Both the position numbers and the translations under genes were made by a program. Below, piece by piece: positions 12,747 to 22,015 of a DNA stretch of 64,000 bases. Below the pieces are notes generated by a model. It did not search any database. It was not told where the DNA came from and worked only from the letters and a program-made list of their open reading frames with translations. The stretch covers positions 1-64,000 of the forward strand of contig CAMSCJ010000001.1 in the NCBI GenBank assembly GCA_947056845.1, read 5' to 3'. The stretch is from an uncultured Mycoplasmatota bacterium (GTDB taxonomy: Bacteria > Bacillota_I > Bacilli_A > RF39 > UBA660). Position 1 is the first letter of the stretch. Each line of letters opens with the position of its first letter.

Positions 12747-13068
12747 TTATCTTAAAGATTCGATTTTCTCTATAGGCATATTAGTATATTTGGAAATAAG
12801 TGAAACATCAACATTTTCTATTAACATATTTTTAACAATTTCGCGTTTACTTTGATTTATTCCAACTTCAACACCATCATCATAAGCGTCCTCATAATGC
12901 TCTTTTTCTTCCATCATTAATTTTTCTATATCTTCCATTTTTTCATACTCCTTACTATCTAAATTATATATTTTTATTTCTTCTAATATTTTCTTATAAA
13001 TTTTATTCTTGATTACTAAATATTTTTTTAAACAAGTAATCATTTTCTAATGTATATATTTTGTTCAT
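12747..13068 (-). pseudogene. Rpn-family nuclease remnant with internal deletion
   Basis: From 13068 the sequence reads the Rpn N-terminus (MNKIYTLENDYLFKKIFS) and then meets a stop. The C-terminal part (KIYKKILEEIKIYNLDSKEY through VDVSLISKYTNMPIEKIESLR) follows in another frame. The central PD-(D/E)XK nuclease core, present in the intact paralogue at 19869-20690, is missing. The upstream flank (GTTAACTT, TAATTAAATTATA) matches the flank of the intact gene. The 98-codon reading frame alone would encode only the C-terminal tail. Confidence 0.75.
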
Positions 13069-13292: not shown

Positions 13293-13655
13293 TTAATCTA
13301 TCACAAAATCAAATGATACTGCATCAGATAAATCATAATTAACACTAGTTTCTATTTTAATATCACCATCAATATAAATAGTTTTATCTATTTTAACATT
13401 AAAGGTACAAATAATATTATTACTAGCATCTTTAACAATAATTTCTAAATAATTTATATAAACATTTTCTGGCGAATTATTTACAAGCGTTGCTTTAAAT
13501 GTTGAAACATTATTTTTGGTTATAATGGAAGGATTTTTTAAATCAATGATATTACTTTCACCTGAAACACTTAATAAGATAGTATTTTTAATAGCTACTA
13601 AATGCAAAGTAATAGCTATTAAAATAACACCTGCTAAATATTTTATATATTTCAT
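13293..13655 (-). CDS. small exported/anchored protein at the end of the spoVA operon
   Basis: 120 residues. The N-terminal hydrophobic segment (KYLAGVILIAITLHLVAI) is a signal peptide or anchor, followed by a small beta-rich domain (FKATLVNNSPENVYINYLEI ... FNVKIDKTIYIDGD) reminiscent of FxLYD-type domains. Its start overlaps the spoVAE stop (TAATG), so it is translationally coupled to spoVAE. Position implies forespore expression with spoVA, and the product may sit at the forespore membrane. The family is not recognised. Confidence 0.6.
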   Translation of the reverse strand: MKYIKYLAGVILIAITLHLVAIKNTILLSVSGESNIIDLKNPSIITKNNVSTFKATLVNNSPENVYINYLEIIVKDASNNIICTFNVKIDKTIYIDGDIKIETSVNYDLSDAVSFDFVID

Positions 13656-14005
13656 TAATCTTTAGGATTAAAAATTAAAGATAAGAAGAATGAAATTACA
13701 ATTGCTGATATAATTCCAGATGAAGTTAGGTCAAACATTCCCATAGCTAGTCCCATAAAGCCAAATTCAGCGGCTTTTTCTAAAGCGCCATGAATAAGTA
13801 AGTGACCAAAACTTGTAATTGGAACTAAGGCACCTCCGCCAGCCCATAAAACAAATTTATCATAAATATTGAATAAATCTAAAAATGCTCCAATAACTAC
13901 AAATAAGGCTGTTATATGACCGGGAGTAAGTTTGGTATTGTCTAAAATAATTTGACCAATTAAACAAACGATTCCTGCAAAAATAAAGGCATTAACATAT
14001 ATCAT
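13655..14005 (-). CDS. spoVAE: stage V sporulation protein AE
   Basis: 116 residues, hydrophobic, with several helices. It has the SpoVAC/AE fold features PGHITALFVVIGAFLDLF and GGGALVPITSFGHLLIHGA. With SpoVAC and SpoVAD it forms the spore inner-membrane channel that moves dipicolinate into the forespore and releases it in germination. The start overlaps the spoVAD stop (ATGA), indicating translational coupling. The order VAC-VAD-VAE is the conserved core arrangement. Confidence 0.93.
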   Translation of the reverse strand: MIYVNAFIFAGIVCLIGQIILDNTKLTPGHITALFVVIGAFLDLFNIYDKFVLWAGGGALVPITSFGHLLIHGALEKAAEFGFMGLAMGMFDLTSSGIISAIVISFFLSLIFNPKD

Positions 14006-14991
14006 TCTATTACCTCCAAACTAATCGCGTGGGCAATACTTGGAATGGTCATTTTTTCATTAACCATTGTAGGAGACATTAAAGCCCCTGTTGCTACTAA
14101 TAAAACTCTAGTTATTTCTTTCTTTTTCATCTTATTAAAAATATATCCATAAGTAACAAGTGGGGCACAAGCTGGCCCACTAGCCCCAGCATAAACTGGT
14201 TGATTATCTAAATCAAAGATCATACAAGCAGTATCATCATAATTTTTTAATTTAATATTGTATTCTGTTTCCATATATTCTTTTAAAATTTTTTTACCAT
14301 AAATACCTAAATCCCCTGTTAAAACTAAATCATAATAATCGATTTCTCTTTTTGTATCTCTAAGGTGTTCATATATTGTTTGAGCTGCAGCTGGAGCCAT
14401 AACTGCTCCCATATTATAAACATCTTTGATACCCATATCGATTACAGAACCAACTGTACCACTTTCTATTCTTATTCCTTTTTTATCACTAGATAAATAA
14501 GCACTAGCTCCACCAGTCGTAGTGAATGTTGTTGTCTTTCTTTTTGGTCCACCATATTCAATTGGATATCTAAATTGTTTTTCAGCTGAATTATTATGTG
14601 ATGAAACTGAGCAAACACAGTTTTTGATAATTTTTTTATCAACTAAGGAAGAACCAATAATAAGACCTTCAGTACTAGTTGCACAAGCATTATAAACACC
14701 TAAATATGGTATTCCAAGTTTACTTGCAGCATAATTTGAAGAGGTCAATTGATTCATTAAATCTCCAGAGATATGTAAATCAATATCAAAACGTGTTCGC
14801 CCTATTTTATTAAGTAAAATATCAATCGAATCTTCTATTAATTTAGATTCAGCTTGTTCCCAGGTTTTAAGTCCAAAGTAAAAATCATTATAACTTTTAT
14901 CAAAATAACTTTGTAATGGTCCATTTTTTTCATAAGGTCCTGTTACAGTTCCTGTATCATTAATATATACATTATCAAATTTTATTGTCAT
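14002..14991 (-). CDS. spoVAD: stage V sporulation protein AD
   Basis: 329 residues. A thiolase-fold protein that binds Ca-dipicolinate in the SpoVA channel complex. Motifs typical of SpoVAD: DIDLHISGDLMNQLTSSN, GVYNACATSTEG (the degenerate thiolase nucleophile region), the Gly-rich TTGGASAYL, and GASGPACAPLVTYG. It lies 3 nt downstream of spoVAC and overlaps spoVAE by 4 nt. Length and motifs match the family. Confidence 0.96.
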   Translation of the reverse strand: MTIKFDNVYINDTGTVTGPYEKNGPLQSYFDKSYNDFYFGLKTWEQAESKLIEDSIDILLNKIGRTRFDIDLHISGDLMNQLTSSNYAASKLGIPYLGVYNACATSTEGLIIGSSLVDKKIIKNCVCSVSSHNNSAEKQFRYPIEYGGPKRKTTTFTTTGGASAYLSSDKKGIRIESGTVGSVIDMGIKDVYNMGAVMAPAAAQTIYEHLRDTKREIDYYDLVLTGDLGIYGKKILKEYMETEYNIKLKNYDDTACMIFDLDNQPVYAGASGPACAPLVTYGYIFNKMKKKEITRVLLVATGALMSPTMVNEKMTIPSIAHAISLEVIE

Positions 14992-14994
14992 ATT

Positions 14995-15435
14995 TTAACC
15001 TCCAAATATTATAAGTCGTAAAAGTCCAAAGACATAAGCACTAACAACTCCAAAAATGATTACCGCTCCAGCAAGCTTAAACATACTAGCACCAATTCCC
15101 GTAACTAATCCCTCTTTTTTGTAATCTAAGGCAGCACTCATCATCGCATGCGCAAAACCTGTGATTGGTATAAAAAGCCCCGCTTTACAAAAGTTAACCC
15201 ATTTATCAAAAAAGCCAAAACAAGTAAGCAAGCACCCTATAAATATTAAAGTTATTATCATATAAGTTCCTGCCTCTTTAGTTGGTATATCTAAGTAGTA
15301 TGAATAAAGTTGCAAAATAAATTGACCTAAGACTCCCATAAGTCCACCTGATAAAAAAGCAATCATTCCATTATACATTCTATTTTCTTTTGGTGTATGT
15401 TTATCCACTAATTGTTTGTATTTATTTTTTTCCAT
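14995..15435 (-). CDS. spoVAC: stage V sporulation protein AC
   Basis: 146 residues from MEKNKYKQLV, chosen because AGGAGG lies upstream; an in-frame extension to 15483 would cover the promoter. Membrane protein with several helices and the segment KAGLFIPITGFAHAMMSAALD conserved in SpoVAC, the mechanosensitive component of the dipicolinate channel. First gene of the spoVAC-VAD-VAE operon. A SigF/SigG-type promoter lies immediately upstream. Confidence 0.95.
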   Translation of the reverse strand: MEKNKYKQLVDKHTPKENRMYNGMIAFLSGGLMGVLGQFILQLYSYYLDIPTKEAGTYMIITLIFIGCLLTCFGFFDKWVNFCKAGLFIPITGFAHAMMSAALDYKKEGLVTGIGASMFKLAGAVIIFGVVSAYVFGLLRLIIFGG

Positions 15436-15452
15436 AAAATTCCTCCTAAATT

Positions 15453-15482
15453 TATTATGAAAGGAATTTTTAATTATATACA
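15453..15482 (-). promoter_or_regulatory. SigG/SigF-type promoter of the spoVA operon
   Basis: On the minus strand TGTATA and CATAATA are separated by 17 nt, ending about 18 nt before the spoVAC start. The -10 matches the SigG consensus CATNMTA fully and the -35 matches TGMATA at five of six positions. spoVA is a SigG regulon operon in other spore formers. Confidence 0.6.
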
Positions 15483-15518
15483 AAAAAATAATCTATTAAG
15501 TTTTTTAATAGATTATTC
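15482..15518 (-). terminator. terminator upstream of spoVA
   Basis: A 13-bp perfect stem AATAATCTATTAA/TTAATAGATTATT is followed on the minus strand by seven Ts. It would insulate spoVA from minus-strand transcription coming from 15.8-16.8 kb. Confidence 0.65.
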
Positions 15519-15886: not shown

Positions 15887-16816
15887 TTAATTACTATTTT
15901 TTGTATGTTTAGATTTTTTCATTTTTAATAACATAAGCATAATAGCTATTAATGAAAAAAGAACTGTTAAACCAAATATTTGCATATTTGTATCTAATGT
16001 TTTAGGGTTATTAACCATATCCTTATTCTCTAATGATGAATTACTATCATTAGGATTTCTATCAATTTCCTCATACTTATCATCATTTGAGGGTTTATTA
16101 TTTTCTTCGTTATCAACTATTTCTGTATTAGAAATATTAATATTTTTTTCACCTAAACATGTTGTTTGACCATCTTCTAATTGCTTACAATTAGCTCCAA
16201 AAATAAGATCATTTGTATCAGTACTACCAATATTATCCTTTAATATTGAATTAGCAATATTAGATTTATTAATAACCTTTGTTATATTGTTATTTGCGAA
16301 TGCTAATTTTTCAATTCTTACGACACTACTTGGTATAGTTATGGCTTCTATATTATTATTATAAAAAGCTTTTTCACGAATTGATGTAACAGTATCTGGT
16401 ATTATTATACTTGTTATATTTTTGTTAGCGAAGGCATCGTTAGCTATTGTTATGCTATAAATCAATTCAACACCAGTATGCAGAGAACCATCATACTTAT
16501 CTAAATTAGTGGGAATTACAACATCTGTTATTGTCTCAAAACCATATTCATTTCCTTCATAACATTTATATTCATTTATTTCAACAATTTGTGTCATATC
16601 CGACCAATGACAAACAGGCATACATAAATTATTTCCATCTTCAGTCGTCTCACATATATAATCATCACATTCCTCTATTGGTCCAGCCATATATCTAGCA
16701 TACCCAAAACAATAATCAGGTGTTTCTTCTAATGCCTTAACATTATCTTTTATCAAAAAAATTATTAATATAACTAATACTTTTAATAAACCTTTAAATT
16801 GAACACTTATTTTCAT
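15887..16816 (-). CDS. BspA-type leucine-rich-repeat surface protein with sorting signal
   Basis: About 309 residues. A signal peptide is followed by a Cys-rich stretch (CDDYICETTEDGNNLCMPVC). Next come at least two LRR_5/BspA repeats (FANKNITSIIIPDTVTSI and FYNNNIEAITIPSSVVRI), an Asn/Asp-rich linker, then NPKTLD, a hydrophobic helix and a basic tail (KMKKSKHTK). NPKTxD followed by a helix and Lys-rich end resembles a sortase sorting signal, so the protein is probably attached to the wall. BspA repeats often mediate adhesion. The start at MKISVQFK has GGGTGGT upstream. Confidence 0.75.
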   Translation of the reverse strand: MKISVQFKGLLKVLVILIIFLIKDNVKALEETPDYCFGYARYMAGPIEECDDYICETTEDGNNLCMPVCHWSDMTQIVEINEYKCYEGNEYGFETITDVVIPTNLDKYDGSLHTGVELIYSITIANDAFANKNITSIIIPDTVTSIREKAFYNNNIEAITIPSSVVRIEKLAFANNNITKVINKSNIANSILKDNIGSTDTNDLIFGANCKQLEDGQTTCLGEKNINISNTEIVDNEENNKPSNDDKYEEIDRNPNDSNSSLENKDMVNNPKTLDTNMQIFGLTVLFSLIAIMLMLLKMKKSKHTKNSN

Positions 16817-16876
16817 AAATACCACCCTTAATTATTTTAACACCTTCACAAAATAAATGACATTAATTAATGTTAT

Positions 16877-16909
16877 AAAAAGACAAACTAAGCTGCTAGT
16901 TTGTCTTTT
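16877..16909 (-). terminator. terminator overlapping the end of sigF
   Basis: A perfect 13-bp stem, AAAAGACAAACTA and its complement, has a 6-nt loop and a T-rich tail. The last codons of sigF form one arm. Confidence 0.8.
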
Positions 16910-17559
16910 AACTTCATTAAAACTTTTTTCTCTTTTCTTGATACTTGTACTTGCGTCATTCCTAAAATTTGAGCGGTTTCTGTTTGTGTCATATCACACA
17001 TATATCTTTGCTCAATTAACTCCCTTTCTAATTCAGGTAATAAAGAAAGTTCGTTTCTAAGCGCAATTAAATCATCAAGATTATTTGTCCTCTGCTCACT
17101 TACAGAATCATACAAGGTAATTTGTTTTCCATCGTTATTAATCGGTTCATCTAAACTTTGCAAAACGTTAGTTGATTGCATGGCTTCAGCAATGAAGTAT
17201 TCATCAATTTCTAAATAATTAGAAAGTTCTTTTATTGTTGGTTGTCGCATTAATTTTTGTGTTAATAATATTGAGGCCTTTTCAATCTGTAAATTTAATT
17301 TGGTTATATCACGGCTTATTTTAATTCCCTTATCTTCTCTTACAAATTTTTTCATTTCTCCTAATATATATTTATAAGCATAGGTTGTAAATTTAGTATT
17401 AAAATTTGTATTATACTTTTTATAAGCGGTAGTTAAACCCTTTGCACCTGCTTGAAATAAATCCTCTTTATTAGGATAATTTTTAAAATAGTTCAAATGT
17501 GAGATAGAATAAATTAGATTTTTACTTTCTTCTGTAATTTGTTCTAAACTTTGATTCAT
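16888..17559 (-). CDS. sigF: RNA polymerase sporulation sigma factor SigF-like
   Basis: 223 residues. It is a sigma-70 factor of the SigB/F/G group, with region 2 (EDLFQAGAKGLTTAYKKYN, FTTYAYKYILGEMKKFVRED) and region 4 ending GMTQVQVSRKEKKVLMKL, close to SigF. In Bacillus, SigF is the first forespore sigma and is held inactive by SpoIIAB. Here it follows the spoIIAA-like gene after only 9 nt, with GGAGG in the gap, and no spoIIAB is present between them. SigG is the main alternative, but its location after a spoIIAA-like gene favours SigF. Confidence 0.85.
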   Translation of the reverse strand: MNQSLEQITEESKNLIYSISHLNYFKNYPNKEDLFQAGAKGLTTAYKKYNTNFNTKFTTYAYKYILGEMKKFVREDKGIKISRDITKLNLQIEKASILLTQKLMRQPTIKELSNYLEIDEYFIAEAMQSTNVLQSLDEPINNDGKQITLYDSVSEQRTNNLDDLIALRNELSLLPELERELIEQRYMCDMTQTETAQILGMTQVQVSRKEKKVLMKLKDKLAA

Positions 17560-17568
17560 TTAGCCTCC

Positions 17569-17916
17569 TCATACATTAATTAATTGTAAAGCAGTTAATT
17601 CATCAGTTATTTCATTAGCGTATTTAAGCAAACGACTATTTTTAAATTTTTTTCTAACTTCATCGTTATTAATCCCACATACCATTAAATTTCCTTGATT
17701 GTTCCTTAAAAGCTCATAACTATAAAATAAAGTACTAATACCTTTAATATCAATATAGTTAAGATTTTCAACATTATAAACAATATTTTTAAAGCCATTC
17801 TTGGCAATTAAATTTGTAACCTTTTCATTTAAAATACCAACTGTTTTTTTATTTAGAACCCCTTTTAAACGGATGAAAAAGATGCCACGTCTAAACTCTG
17901 TTTCTACCTCTAACAT
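17569..17916 (-). CDS. spoIIAA: SpoIIAA-like STAS protein lacking the phosphorylatable serine
   Basis: 115 residues, a STAS domain that aligns without gaps in its core to SpoIIAA. In Bacillus subtilis the motif is D56-S57-S58-G59, and Ser58 is phosphorylated by SpoIIAB. Here the same positions read D56-I57-K58-G59 (NYIDIKGIS), so both serines are gone. The partner kinase/anti-sigma gene spoIIAB is also absent from the operon. The gene keeps its sporulation context: two Spo0A-box-like sites upstream and sigF directly downstream. It may act on SigF in another way, or be a remnant under weak constraint; its even codon use and intact frame argue for function. Confidence 0.8.
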   Translation of the reverse strand: MLEVETEFRRGIFFIRLKGVLNKKTVGILNEKVTNLIAKNGFKNIVYNVENLNYIDIKGISTLFYSYELLRNNQGNLMVCGINNDEVRKKFKNSRLLKYANEITDELTALQLINV

Positions 17917-17963
17917 ATATCACCTCGCTATTCTAATTTAGCACATATTTTTTTATTTTATAC

Positions 17964-17999
17964 AAATTCGACAAAACTAGATTGTTTTTTAAGTCGACA
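17964..17999 (-). promoter_or_regulatory. two Spo0A-box-like sites upstream of the spoIIAA-sigF operon
   Basis: On the minus strand TTTTGTCGAATTT (17976-17964) contains a perfect TGTCGAA Spo0A box. TGTCGAC (17999-17993) is a second site with one mismatch. They lie about 50-85 nt before the spoIIAA-like start, as in the Spo0A-activated spoIIA promoter. A SigH -10 could not be assigned with confidence. Confidence 0.6.
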
Positions 18000-18034: not shown

Positions 18035-18496
18035 TTATTTAATTCTTTTCAGCATTTTAGTTTCCTCTAATAACTTATTAGTTTTAATTAAATCCCATTT
18101 TGGTGTATCAAAAATAAATGTATTAATATCACTAATATTAGTACCATTTATATTTTCATAAACAAATGGTTCTTCTTTAAAATTATCAGTATTAGATATT
18201 TTTAGAGAAAAAATAGAATTAAAATTATTAATTTTTATTTTTAAACTAGACAATGGATAATAATTTTCTAAATCAATAATATAATAATCTAAAAAATTAT
18301 AATTGAAATCTAATTTTTGATCAGCTATATATATATCAATATTATCAATATCAAAAACCTCTAAATTATAAAAATAAATATATCTAATTTCTTTGACCAT
18401 TCTATACTCATACATATAAGTTGGTTCCTTAAAAAAATTATTGATTGTATTTAAATGTAGATTAAATAATAAATTTATAAATAACAATATTTTCAA
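18035..18496 (-). CDS. exported hypothetical protein
   Basis: 153 residues with a short signal peptide (MKILLFINLLFNLHLNTI) and a beta-rich domain full of Asn, Asp, Ile and Tyr. No recognised motif and no cysteine. It precedes the Spo0A-box region of the spoIIAA-sigF operon in the same orientation, with about 120 nt between, so it is probably a separate unit. Function unknown. Confidence 0.5.
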   Translation of the reverse strand: MKILLFINLLFNLHLNTINNFFKEPTYMYEYRMVKEIRYIYFYNLEVFDIDNIDIYIADQKLDFNYNFLDYYIIDLENYYPLSSLKIKINNFNSIFSLKISNTDNFKEEPFVYENINGTNISDINTFIFDTPKWDLIKTNKLLEETKMLKRIK

Positions 18497-18593: not shown

Positions 18594-19688
18594 TTATGAA
18601 ATGTATGATTTATTCACCGTTATTACAGGGCGAATGCCAATTTGGGAATTAATCACAGTATAATCATCTAAAGAACCAGCTCTACGTACTGGCCATGCAC
18701 GATCTAAATCAACAAAGCTATTAGTCCAATATCCTCTCATATTACTGATATTATTTCCTGTCGCATTATTAATACAGCCATACGAAACACAGTCATTAGA
18801 TGTATGATCATACAGCCAGCCATAATTTCTTTCAGTTGGTATTTCTTGCGTTAATGTATCAAAATAATACCACGAACTAGTGCTAGTTTCTACAAAGTCT
18901 GTTTTTCCTGTTATAGTATTTATCTCATTAGCTGTTATTAGTCGTGGATTTAAACTACTATTCCATCCTGTTATATCACTAACTAATTGTGCATTTCTAT
19001 TATTCCAATTATCTACTGTTGCTGTCGTGTTATGATCTAGTATCATCGTATAATTTTCTCCATCATCTTCGTAAGCATACCATTTCATACAACCCACTTT
19101 TGTTTCTGTAACACTATTCACATTACTTGCATCACAATATTTTATTAAATCAGTTGGATCTAAATAAACTACTGCTTTAACACCTGTATAACCATCCCCG
19201 CTTGGTTTTTCACTTGTTGGCCCTTGTACTACTGGGGTATTTCCACCATCATCATTTTGTGTACACACTGCTATAGAGTTTTTATAATTACAATTAAATC
19301 CATTTATTTTTAAATTTTCTGCTACTATATTACTACCATTTGACCTTATTTTAATGGTTCCACTCTTTGGTTTAGTTCCTTTAAATTCTAATGTTTTTAG
19401 TTCATCTAAATTATATCCTGTTAAATTTGTCGCTTGTAAATCACAACTACTACCATTACAATCAAATACTAATTCTGCACTAGGTAAAGACCCTCTATTT
19501 TGTAACATAAAATTCGATACATAAGTTTCTGCTGACTCAATTATTCCGTATGTTGAATCTTCTGCAGCGCTTAATCTTGCCTTATTTAATATTTTTAATA
19601 TTTGTGGTACTGCTATTAAAGCTATTACTGCAAGTATTACAATTACTGCTAATAATTCTATAAGGGTAAAACCATTTCTCTTTTCCAT
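18594..19688 (-). CDS. pseudopilin-like surface protein, copy 1
   Basis: 364 residues. Class III prepilin leader MEKRNGFTLIELLAVIVIL, N-terminal helix (to about residue 40), then a pilin head with a disulfide-type pair (FDCNGSSCDL). A linker rich in Gly/Pro/Thr (about 140-165) leads to a C-terminal domain with CDASNVNSVTETKVGCMKWY, a GYWTNSFVD segment and GIRPVITVN, resembling the DUF1566/DUF6273 type. The N-terminal 140 residues are nearly identical to copy 2 at 20891, whereas the C-terminal parts differ. No prepilin peptidase or assembly ATPase is in the window. Probably a displayed or adhesive protein. Confidence 0.75.
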   Translation of the reverse strand: MEKRNGFTLIELLAVIVILAVIALIAVPQILKILNKARLSAAEDSTYGIIESAETYVSNFMLQNRGSLPSAELVFDCNGSSCDLQATNLTGYNLDELKTLEFKGTKPKSGTIKIRSNGSNIVAENLKINGFNCNYKNSIAVCTQNDDGGNTPVVQGPTSEKPSGDGYTGVKAVVYLDPTDLIKYCDASNVNSVTETKVGCMKWYAYEDDGENYTMILDHNTTATVDNWNNRNAQLVSDITGWNSSLNPRLITANEINTITGKTDFVETSTSSWYYFDTLTQEIPTERNYGWLYDHTSNDCVSYGCINNATGNNISNMRGYWTNSFVDLDRAWPVRRAGSLDDYTVINSQIGIRPVITVNKSYIS

Positions 19689-19883
19689 ATACTGCTCCCT
19701 TGTCTATTATATAAATTGAAATATAACATTAACTATTATCTATTCAATACTTCTCTTTTTATTCTTTACAGTATTTATTATATATTTTTTCATTATTTTA
19801 TGGCTAATTTTAATGTTATATTTTTTGAAGATAATTTATTAAAAAGACAAAAAATCTTTAAAATATTTCTATCTTAAAGATTC
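19261..19883. repeat. tandem duplication, copy 1 (pilin 5' half and upstream region)
   Basis: Nearly identical to 21588-22210, at a constant offset of 2327 bp. The repeat covers the first ~140 codons of the pilin gene, about 190 bp upstream, and the last codons of an Rpn gene (ESLR and stop). Confidence 0.9.
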
Positions 19884-20690
19884 TATTTCTTTTACTGATA
19901 AATTCGTATACTTTGAAATTAATGAAACATCAACATTTTCTGTTAACATATTTTTAGCTATTTCTTTTTTGTTTTGAATAACGCCTTGACTTATTCCTTG
20001 ACTTATTCCCTCTCTTTTTCCAACTTTATAAGCCGTATCATAATGCTCTGTTTCATTCATCATTAGTCTTTCAATATCTTCCATTTTCTTATACTCCTTA
20101 CTATCTAAATTATATCTTTTTATTTCTTCTAATATTTTTTTACAAATATCACTTGTAATTGTCTTATCTAATTCATTTATATTTTCTGTATTAAATAAAT
20201 TTACTAATTCATAATATTTATTTTCTTTATTATTTTTATTAACTTTGGTTAAATCAAATATTTCATATTCTAACTTTTTAGTAAATATTTTGTTTTTTAC
20301 TTTCAATCTAACACTATTTTTGATTTTACTATTAAATAATGGATAATTAATTATGGCATAGACTTTTATACTTTTTAAATTCTCGTAATCTTCACCTTCT
20401 TCTAAACAATGGTTAGTTATTATATTAGATGAATAAAATAGTAATCTATCTTCAAAATTATGTCTATCGATATTTTGTAACTCTAATATAACAATTTCAC
20501 CATCAACATTGAGTAGCATATCTACAATTCCTACTTTTCCTTCTTTATGAGTTTTAATTAAATAGGTATTTAAATATTCGATTTCTTTAGCTTTAATATC
20601 AAAAAAACTAAATAATAATTGTTTTAAATATCCTTCTTTACTAAATATTTTTTTAAATAAGTAATTATTTTCTAATGTGTATAATTTCAT
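19869..20690 (-). CDS. Rpn family recombination-promoting nuclease/putative transposase
   Basis: 273 residues, full length. PD-(D/E)XK core near residues 55-75: GIVDMLLNVDGEIVILELQN, with the Asp, the Glu-x-Gln and the preceding Lys region in place. Then an alpha-helical domain (KMEDIERLMM) and a variable repeat (GKREGISQGISQG). The end is VDVSLISKYTNLSVKEIESLR. Rpn proteins are DNA endonucleases that raise RecA-independent recombination. It lies between the two near-identical pilin genes, and a trace of its 3' end occurs beside copy 2, so it took part in, or was carried by, that duplication. The window holds two further paralogues. Confidence 0.85.
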   Translation of the reverse strand: MKLYTLENNYLFKKIFSKEGYLKQLLFSFFDIKAKEIEYLNTYLIKTHKEGKVGIVDMLLNVDGEIVILELQNIDRHNFEDRLLFYSSNIITNHCLEEGEDYENLKSIKVYAIINYPLFNSKIKNSVRLKVKNKIFTKKLEYEIFDLTKVNKNNKENKYYELVNLFNTENINELDKTITSDICKKILEEIKRYNLDSKEYKKMEDIERLMMNETEHYDTAYKVGKREGISQGISQGVIQNKKEIAKNMLTENVDVSLISKYTNLSVKEIESLR

Positions 20691-20890: not shown

Positions 20891-22015
20891 CTATGAAATC
20901 TTATTTTTTGGGACTGTTATTACAGGGCGGACACCATTATTGTAATTAACCATGCGTCCCGTTAAATAACCACTATATGTTATATTCCAAACACCATAAG
21001 TTTGATAAAAAACTGTTGAACTAGTCCAATATCCAATATCACTTGTTCCCATTGAATTATTTAAACAACCATATAATTTGCAATCTGAATTTGTTCTGTC
21101 GAATAGCCAACCGTATTTACTAGGTGAAGGCCATGGACTTGGTTGAGATTCAGTTTTTGTTTCAAAATAAATTGAAACACCTGATGTAGCAGAATTCCAG
21201 TTATCTTTGCCTATTATTTTAACAATTTCATCAGCTGTTATTAATCTTGGACTTAAACTACTATTCCAATTAGATGTATCATCTGCTAATGAAGCTGCAA
21301 CTTCGCCCATACTGCTATTATCTCCACTTGAATTCCAAGCTACTAATGCTGTCGTGTTATGATCTAGTATCATTGTATAATCTGCTCCATCATCTTCGTA
21401 AGCATACCATTTCATACAACCAACTTTTGTTCCTGTAACACTATTTACATTACTTGCATCACAATATTTTGTTAAATCATTTGGATCTAAATAAACTATT
21501 GCCTTAACACCTGTATAACCATCCCCACTTGGTGTTTCACTTGTTGGTCCTTGTACTACTGGGGGATTTCCGCTACCATCATTTTGTGTACACGTTGCTA
21601 TAGAGTTTTTATAATTACAATTAAATCCATTTATTTTTAAGTTTGCTGCTACTATATTACTACCATTTGAACTTATTTTAATGGTTCCACTCTTTGGTTT
21701 AGTTCCTTTAAATTCTAATGTTTTTAGTTCATCTAAATTATATCCTGTTAAATTTGTCGCTTGTAAATCACAACTACTACCATTACAATCAAATACTAAT
21801 TCTGCACTAGGTAAAGACCCTCTATTTTGTAACATAAAATTCGATACATAAGTTTCTGCTGACTCAATTATTCCGTATGTTGAATCTTCTGCAGCGCTTA
21901 ATCTTGCCTTATTTAATATTTTTAATATTTGTGGTACTGCTATTAAAGCTATTACTGCAAGTATTACAATTACTGCTAATAATTCTATAAGGGTAAAACC
22001 ATTTCTCTTTTCCAT
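20891..22015 (-). CDS. pseudopilin-like surface protein, copy 2
   Basis: 374 residues, organised as copy 1: leader MEKRNGFTLIELLAVIVIL, pilin head with paired cysteines, Gly/Pro/Thr linker, and a C-terminal domain with a GYWTSSTVFYQTYGVW segment and GVRPVITVP. The first 140 residues match copy 1 almost exactly. After residue 150 the two share only family-level similarity, with insertions (for example SSGDNSSMGEVAASLADD). Conserved display stalk and diverged tip suggest different ligands, or antigenic variation by recombination through the shared 5' half. Confidence 0.75.
   Translation of the reverse strand: MEKRNGFTLIELLAVIVILAVIALIAVPQILKILNKARLSAAEDSTYGIIESAETYVSNFMLQNRGSLPSAELVFDCNGSSCDLQATNLTGYNLDELKTLEFKGTKPKSGTIKISSNGSNIVAANLKINGFNCNYKNSIATCTQNDGSGNPPVVQGPTSETPSGDGYTGVKAIVYLDPNDLTKYCDASNVNSVTGTKVGCMKWYAYEDDGADYTMILDHNTTALVAWNSSGDNSSMGEVAASLADDTSNWNSSLSPRLITADEIVKIIGKDNWNSATSGVSIYFETKTESQPSPWPSPSKYGWLFDRTNSDCKLYGCLNNSMGTSDIGYWTSSTVFYQTYGVWNITYSGYLTGRMVNYNNGVRPVITVPKNKIS

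Follow-up and report, generated by a model that had tools for sequence, protein, structure and literature searches.

A STAS–sigF locus without spoIIAB and its possible bearing on sigma-F control in a lineage of uncultured gut bacteria

How might sigma-F be controlled in bacteria that have lost its anti-sigma factor? Textbooks present the SpoIIAA–SpoIIAB–SpoIIE system as the first checkpoint of endospore formation; in Bacillus subtilis, its phospho-switch keeps sigma-F silent until septation. The question is raised by a stretch of 64,000 nucleotides (nt) from an uncultured Mycoplasmatota bacterium (contig CAMSCJ010000001.1 of assembly GCA_947056845.1, positions 1 to 64,000), here called the window. 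On its minus strand, the gene for a SpoIIAA-like STAS protein is followed after only 9 nt by sigF, then by a gene for a BspA-type leucine-rich-repeat protein and by spoVAC, spoVAD and spoVAE (Table 1). The reading favoured here, with moderate confidence, is that the switch has been dismantled, that Spo0A gates sigF, and that the STAS protein has been repurposed as an accessory partner of sigma-F, perhaps through direct binding to SigF.

The STAS protein matches PF01740 with 49.2 bits (4.8e-13), above the cut-off of 22.6, which places it in the STAS fold. Against the NCBI model spore_II_AA (TIGR02886), it scores 52.8 bits (3.3e-14), below the equivalog cut-off of 114.75. Its solved relatives are SpoIIAA structures (1th8, 1tid and 1auz), and the solved structure nearest to its AlphaFold model (pLDDT 93.6) is 1thn_B (TM 0.91), namely SpoIIAA out of the SpoIIAA–SpoIIAB complex. 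The position directly upstream of sigF is that of SpoIIAA; an intervening spoIIAB and a cognate SpoIIE are both missing, and so is the phosphorylatable serine. In a phmmer alignment to 1th8 and 1auz, Y54-I55-D56-I57-K58-G59 stand opposite F-M-D-S-S-G of SpoIIAA, with Ile57 and Lys58 in the places of the phosphoserine and the next serine (D-I-K-G vs D-S-S-G).

For SigF, the best NCBI model is spore_sigF (TIGR02885; 2e-52, 178 bits) and the best PDB match is 1l0o_C (1.8e-35). In this fast-evolving lineage, with its shortened SigF N-terminus, the score falls below the equivalog cut-off of 321, so it is the best match and the gene order that justify the name SigF: the STAS gene upstream, spoVAC-AD-AE downstream, and a SigG-like gene at a separate place in the same genome (G000:C3).

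Could spoIIAB lie elsewhere? Genome-wide questions were answered by profile searches of the window's genome (1.67 Mb, 90% complete). There, the SpoIIAB model finds only four open reading frames (ORFs) of 350–421 amino acids (aa), all of histidine-kinase type and three of them with HisKA, and no HATPase_c_2 (small HATPase) protein was found. The genome contains a single STAS gene and therefore no second spoIIA operon. Since it is 90% complete, it is the order-wide absence that carries the negative result. At E<=1e-12, the SpoIIAB model has no match in any of the 241 order genomes searched, 217 of which are of high quality; within the class, 64 of 296 genomes match, 58 over the curated cut-off. 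None of 98 family genomes has a SpoIIE domain over the cut-off, the one weak match being an ordinary PP2C in a relative. Judged by these searches, the SpoIIAA–SpoIIAB–SpoIIE phospho-switch is dismantled in the lineage, the kinase and anti-sigma factor SpoIIAB and the phosphatase SpoIIE both being absent.

For comparison, 146 distinct STAS–sigF pairs of the lineage were gathered. An arrangement common to so many distinct pairs is not due to chance or an assembly accident. In these pairs, either a few tens of nt at most separate the STAS stop codon from the start of sigF or the two genes overlap slightly. The 28 SpoIIAB-positive outgroup loci have 409–572 nt between STAS and the first aligned sigF residue, and the motif D-S-[STA]-G in every one. 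Position 57 is Ser in 28/28 outgroups vs Ser or Thr in 14/146 family pairs, where it is the second most variable of the 115 columns (entropy rank 114). An earlier note on this DNA, made from the letters alone, had described the 9-nt gap without room for spoIIAB and the Ile-Lys pair in place of Ser-Ser, and had proposed aligning the SpoIIAA-like proteins of relatives. The ORF coordinates and the alignments bear out both observations, and the layout recurs in the roughly 146 pairs. Neither of the two findings that it named as fatal, a spoIIAB gene elsewhere and a second complete spoIIAA-AB-sigF operon, turned up in the window's genome, nor did the former in the 241 genomes of the order. Its argument that loss of the gene and of the phosphosite is coherent is strengthened by the missing SpoIIE and by the free variation of a column that is invariant in SpoIIAB-positive relatives.

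Lys58 is found in 61/146 pairs, scattered over the SigF tree. It was considered as a conserved functional replacement and rejected, its many gains and losses marking it as a clade feature and not a rule. With a single-protein query, the STAS protein is present in 106/145 family genomes. In one relative (L060, L014), STAS and sigF are about 1.5 kb apart owing to the insertion of a metK-like gene.

What, then, is the STAS protein kept for? Column entropies were compared between the outgroup and the family subsampled to 28, with mean identities of 41% and 37%, respectively. At this similar divergence, the two sets correlate at 0.65 for SigF and at only 0.15 for the STAS protein. In the latter, constraint has been lost at columns 57, 54, 66, 20, 61, 95, 94, 64, 65, 58 and 22, a set that takes in the phosphosite and the helix that follows. 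It has been gained at E7, R10, G11, I12, F14 and R16, in the beta1–beta2 hairpin (strand positions taken from the AlphaFold model), and at C80, E106 and L107. The hairpin residues are near-invariant in the family despite 37% mean pairwise identity, and the hairpin is still readable in drifted copies without the D..G motif (G-I-x-F-x-R-L in two of three inspected). As read from the alignments, the conserved residues no longer lie on the surface facing the kinase but in the N-terminal beta-hairpin and the C-terminal helix (E106). Such a shift would be expected if the binding partner had changed, and the protein is apparently kept for something other than the phospho-switch. A SigF-specific loss of the SpoIIAB-binding surface was also considered and rejected, the column conservation of SigF being barely different from that in the outgroups.

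The relaxed columns bear on a first alternative, namely that an unrecognised, divergent anti-sigma factor or kinase and a phosphatase still act, phosphorylating another STAS residue or recognising the protein differently. Sensor kinases are plentiful in the window's genome, profile searches can miss extreme divergence, and one PP2C was seen in a relative. This account is nevertheless improbable: position 57 and the kinase-facing positions 54, 61, 64–66, 94 and 95 are all relaxed and not jointly shifted to a new Ser or Thr, and a search of 58 genomes at E<=1e-6 found no small HATPase, its only match being part of a 622-aa ORF whose C-terminus is receiver-like.

In a second alternative, sporulation is decaying in the lineage and STAS is left over as a relic. 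There are indeed genera with a degenerate STAS or none, and genera that lack SigF, SpoIIR and STAS altogether; a sigma-factor scan of 41 genomes found SigF and SigG missing from G005, G033, G036 and G038, and the same genomes have neither SpoIIR nor a confident STAS match. However, the ratio of non-synonymous to synonymous substitution rates for STAS is about 0.02–0.1 for most close pairs and usually lower than the SigF value from the same genomes, so that the protein is under strong purifying selection and not decaying, and the near-invariance of the hairpin speaks against decay as well. Moreover, the sampled genomes with SigF also have SpoIIR, and most have SpoIID and YlbJ. Decay, already disfavoured for the window's clade, is thus very unlikely. 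In the window's genome, Spo0A (268 bits) and SpoIID (306 bits) score above their curated cut-offs, SpoIIR (144 bits) falls just under its cut-off of 152, and there are a YlbJ match (TIGR02871) below cut-off and the SigG-like gene. By gene content, a sporulation program remains in this genome, and the members of the lineage, uncultured gut bacteria, are probably spore-forming. A STAS remnant at G057:C8:28373-28576 (L307), in a genome without SpoIIR and without a full Spo0A match, looks like a relic after sporulation loss.

If the switch is gone, what gates sigF? Upstream of the STAS gene lies a perfect Spo0A box (Table 1). Its core TGTCGAA occurs within 230 nt upstream of STAS in 134/148 relatives (3 expected), nearly always 50–100 nt before the STAS start and on the same strand. 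The family consensus anchored on the box has a weak second box (TGTCGA) upstream and nTATAA-N17-TAaAtT downstream. In four of five genomes without STAS, TTGTCGAA stands shortly upstream of sigF; the fifth (G039) has only a reversed site further upstream. Since the box is kept before most STAS-less sigF genes, Spo0A control accompanies sigF in most cases, with or without STAS. The suggestion of the earlier note that SigF is controlled otherwise, for example by transcription, thus gains support on its transcriptional side. The GTATAA −35-like element is common to the sigF promoter and the spoIIR promoters of the lineage, so that autoregulation of sigF is possible.

At spoIIR itself (L277–L306; the window's own genome is L285), most of 24 aligned loci have TG[A/T]ATAAAA and, after about 14–16 nt, CA[A/C/T]TAT. 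This promoter-like element resembles forespore-type (SigF/SigG) promoters. The classical B. subtilis SigF promoter pattern was sought upstream of spoIIR in the lineage and not found.

These promoters bring in a third alternative: transcription alone, through Spo0A gating and possibly autoregulation via GTATAA and the −10-like element, might control SigF, while the STAS protein would have an unrelated function and be kept adjacent by operon history. The distribution of the Spo0A boxes, with or without STAS, is in favour of it, as is the GTATAA element shared with spoIIR. So is the persistence of sigF in five SigF-positive genera without a STAS gene beside sigF or elsewhere in the genome (G008, G013, G015, G024 and G039), four of them represented at >=90% completeness. 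At least four genera with SigF are counted as having lost the gene, and three of these retain the Spo0A box. Because several genera keep sigF in this way, STAS is not essential to sigma-F function across the lineage. Nor was co-variation seen: in direct-coupling analysis of the 146 pairs (effective number of sequences, Neff, 76–127), STAS–SigF was not separated from the SpoVAC control. On the other side, the tight STAS–sigF coupling, at a few nt and sometimes with overlap across very divergent genera, exceeds what operon history needs, and SigF driven by Spo0A would exist before septation with nothing holding it. Control by transcription alone is therefore a minority possibility, well behind the favoured reading.

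In the favoured reading, Spo0A~P would turn on sigF mainly at the level of transcription. Less certainly, the STAS protein, made together with SigF, would now serve as a non-phosphorylated accessory partner that modulates sigma-F; in the simplest form, it would bind SigF itself through the new surface, direct binding having been the other suggestion of the earlier note. A more specific version is less likely than not: STAS, once an anti-anti-sigma factor, may now contact sigma-F directly via the N-terminal beta-hairpin, as an anti-sigma factor or co-factor, one protein replacing the three-protein switch. Several points weigh against a sigma-F partnership combined with Spo0A gating. The loss of STAS in several SigF-positive genera and the uninformative coupling analysis count here too. 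A fused STAS–SigF ORF, which would speak for direct contact, was sought among the relatives and none was found. Because Spo0A is active already before the asymmetric septum forms, control by transcription alone leaves restriction to the forespore unexplained. Lastly, the sporulation of these uncultured bacteria is itself a prediction from gene content.

Table 1. Features of the STAS–sigF locus in the window.
Feature	Position	Strand	Basis or remark
SpoIIAA-like STAS protein, 115 aa	17569..17916	-	ORF; PF01740; TIGR02886; alignment to 1th8/1tid/1auz; AlphaFold model
sigF, 223-aa sporulation sigma factor, SigF/SigG group, short N-terminus	16888..17559	-	ORF; TIGR02885; 1l0o_C
9-nt gap from STAS stop to sigF start, too small for spoIIAB	17560..17568	-	sequence
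spoVAC, downstream of sigF, same orientation	14995..15483	-	TIGR02838, 1.5e-48
spoVAD	14002..14991	-	PF07451, 4e-123
spoVAE	13655..14005	-	TIGR02839, 3e-39
Perfect Spo0A box TTTTGTCGAA upstream of STAS	17967..17976	-	sole perfect one in the window, 0.15 expected
Additional, degenerate site resembling a Spo0A box (TGTCGAC), upstream of the perfect one by about 20 nt	17993..17999	-	sequence; weak second TGTCGA in family consensus
Conserved GTATAA, −35-like	17958..17963	-	family consensus
Conserved TAAATT, −10-like	17935..17940	-	family consensus

The surroundings of the locus vary. The BspA-type leucine-rich-repeat surface protein gene (15887-16825, minus strand, as are all genes named in this paragraph) separates sigF from spoVAC, which in many relatives lies directly 3' of sigF. 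A 120-aa ORF (13293-13655) overlaps the end of spoVAE by one base and has no family match. Upstream of STAS, many relatives have the gene of a secreted coiled-coil protein of about 470 aa; the window has a 153-aa ORF (18035-18496), a shortened relative of it without a convincing Pfam family. The coiled-coil gene was considered as a replacement regulator and rejected as a general partner, because many relatives lack it and the window has only the 153-aa form. Further upstream lie two paralogous prepilin-like genes (18594-19688 and 20891-22015) with an N-terminal methylation motif, nearly identical in their N-terminal halves and diverged in their C-terminal halves. Between them is a PD-(D/E)XK nuclease family transposase gene (19869-20690), whose C-terminal part is resembled by a 98-aa ORF (12747-13043) near the spoVA genes.

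How does the locus compare with known systems? It is, as far as gene content and alignments can tell, a real, lineage-wide variant of one. With the spoIIA operon of Bacillus and Clostridia it shares a STAS gene directly before sigF, a Spo0A box upstream, spoVA genes nearby and the SpoIIAA fold. It differs in lacking spoIIAB, SpoIIE and the phosphoserine, in its moved conserved surface, and in the dispensability of STAS in some genera. RsbV–RsbW, RsbS and other single-domain STAS regulators also have the STAS fold and act by binding partners. The RsbV–RsbW and RsbS types, however, use a phosphorylatable Ser or Thr and a GHKL kinase, neither of which was found here; no search was aimed at stressosome partners of the RsbS type.

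Galperin et al. (2012; PMC3533761) list spoIIAA, spoIIAB, sigF and spoIIE for all spore-forming bacilli and clostridia. According to the main text of Field, Bowerman and Hugenholtz (2024; PMC10868615), spoIIAB and spoIIE are reduced or absent in the order RF39, and SpoIID is reduced or absent in ML615J-28. The window's lineage likewise has spoIIAB and spoIIE reduced or absent and keeps Spo0A and SpoIID, as does RF39 in that text, with ML615J-28 differing in SpoIID; by gene content, it is probably GTDB order RF39. The same main text does not deal with SpoIIAA, the phosphosite, selection on STAS, the operon layout, the promoter or the loss of STAS in genera, and no paper on the remodelling of STAS was found among open-licence PMC literature. 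The gene loss is thus partly published, and the retained, re-specialised and sometimes lost SpoIIAA in a putative Spo0A-gated two-gene operon appears to be new.

There is also a practical side to the finding. A published spore predictor has spoIIAB in every genome that it calls spore-forming and scores RF39 genomes at 0% (PMC12536801), and predictors of this kind may therefore misjudge this lineage. For the biology of sporulation, a large gut lineage with the rest of the cascade but without the switch suggests that the checkpoint can be dispensed with. Its genera, in which STAS is kept, drifting or lost, would serve as natural experiments on how compartment-specific sigma-F activity may be set without the switch.
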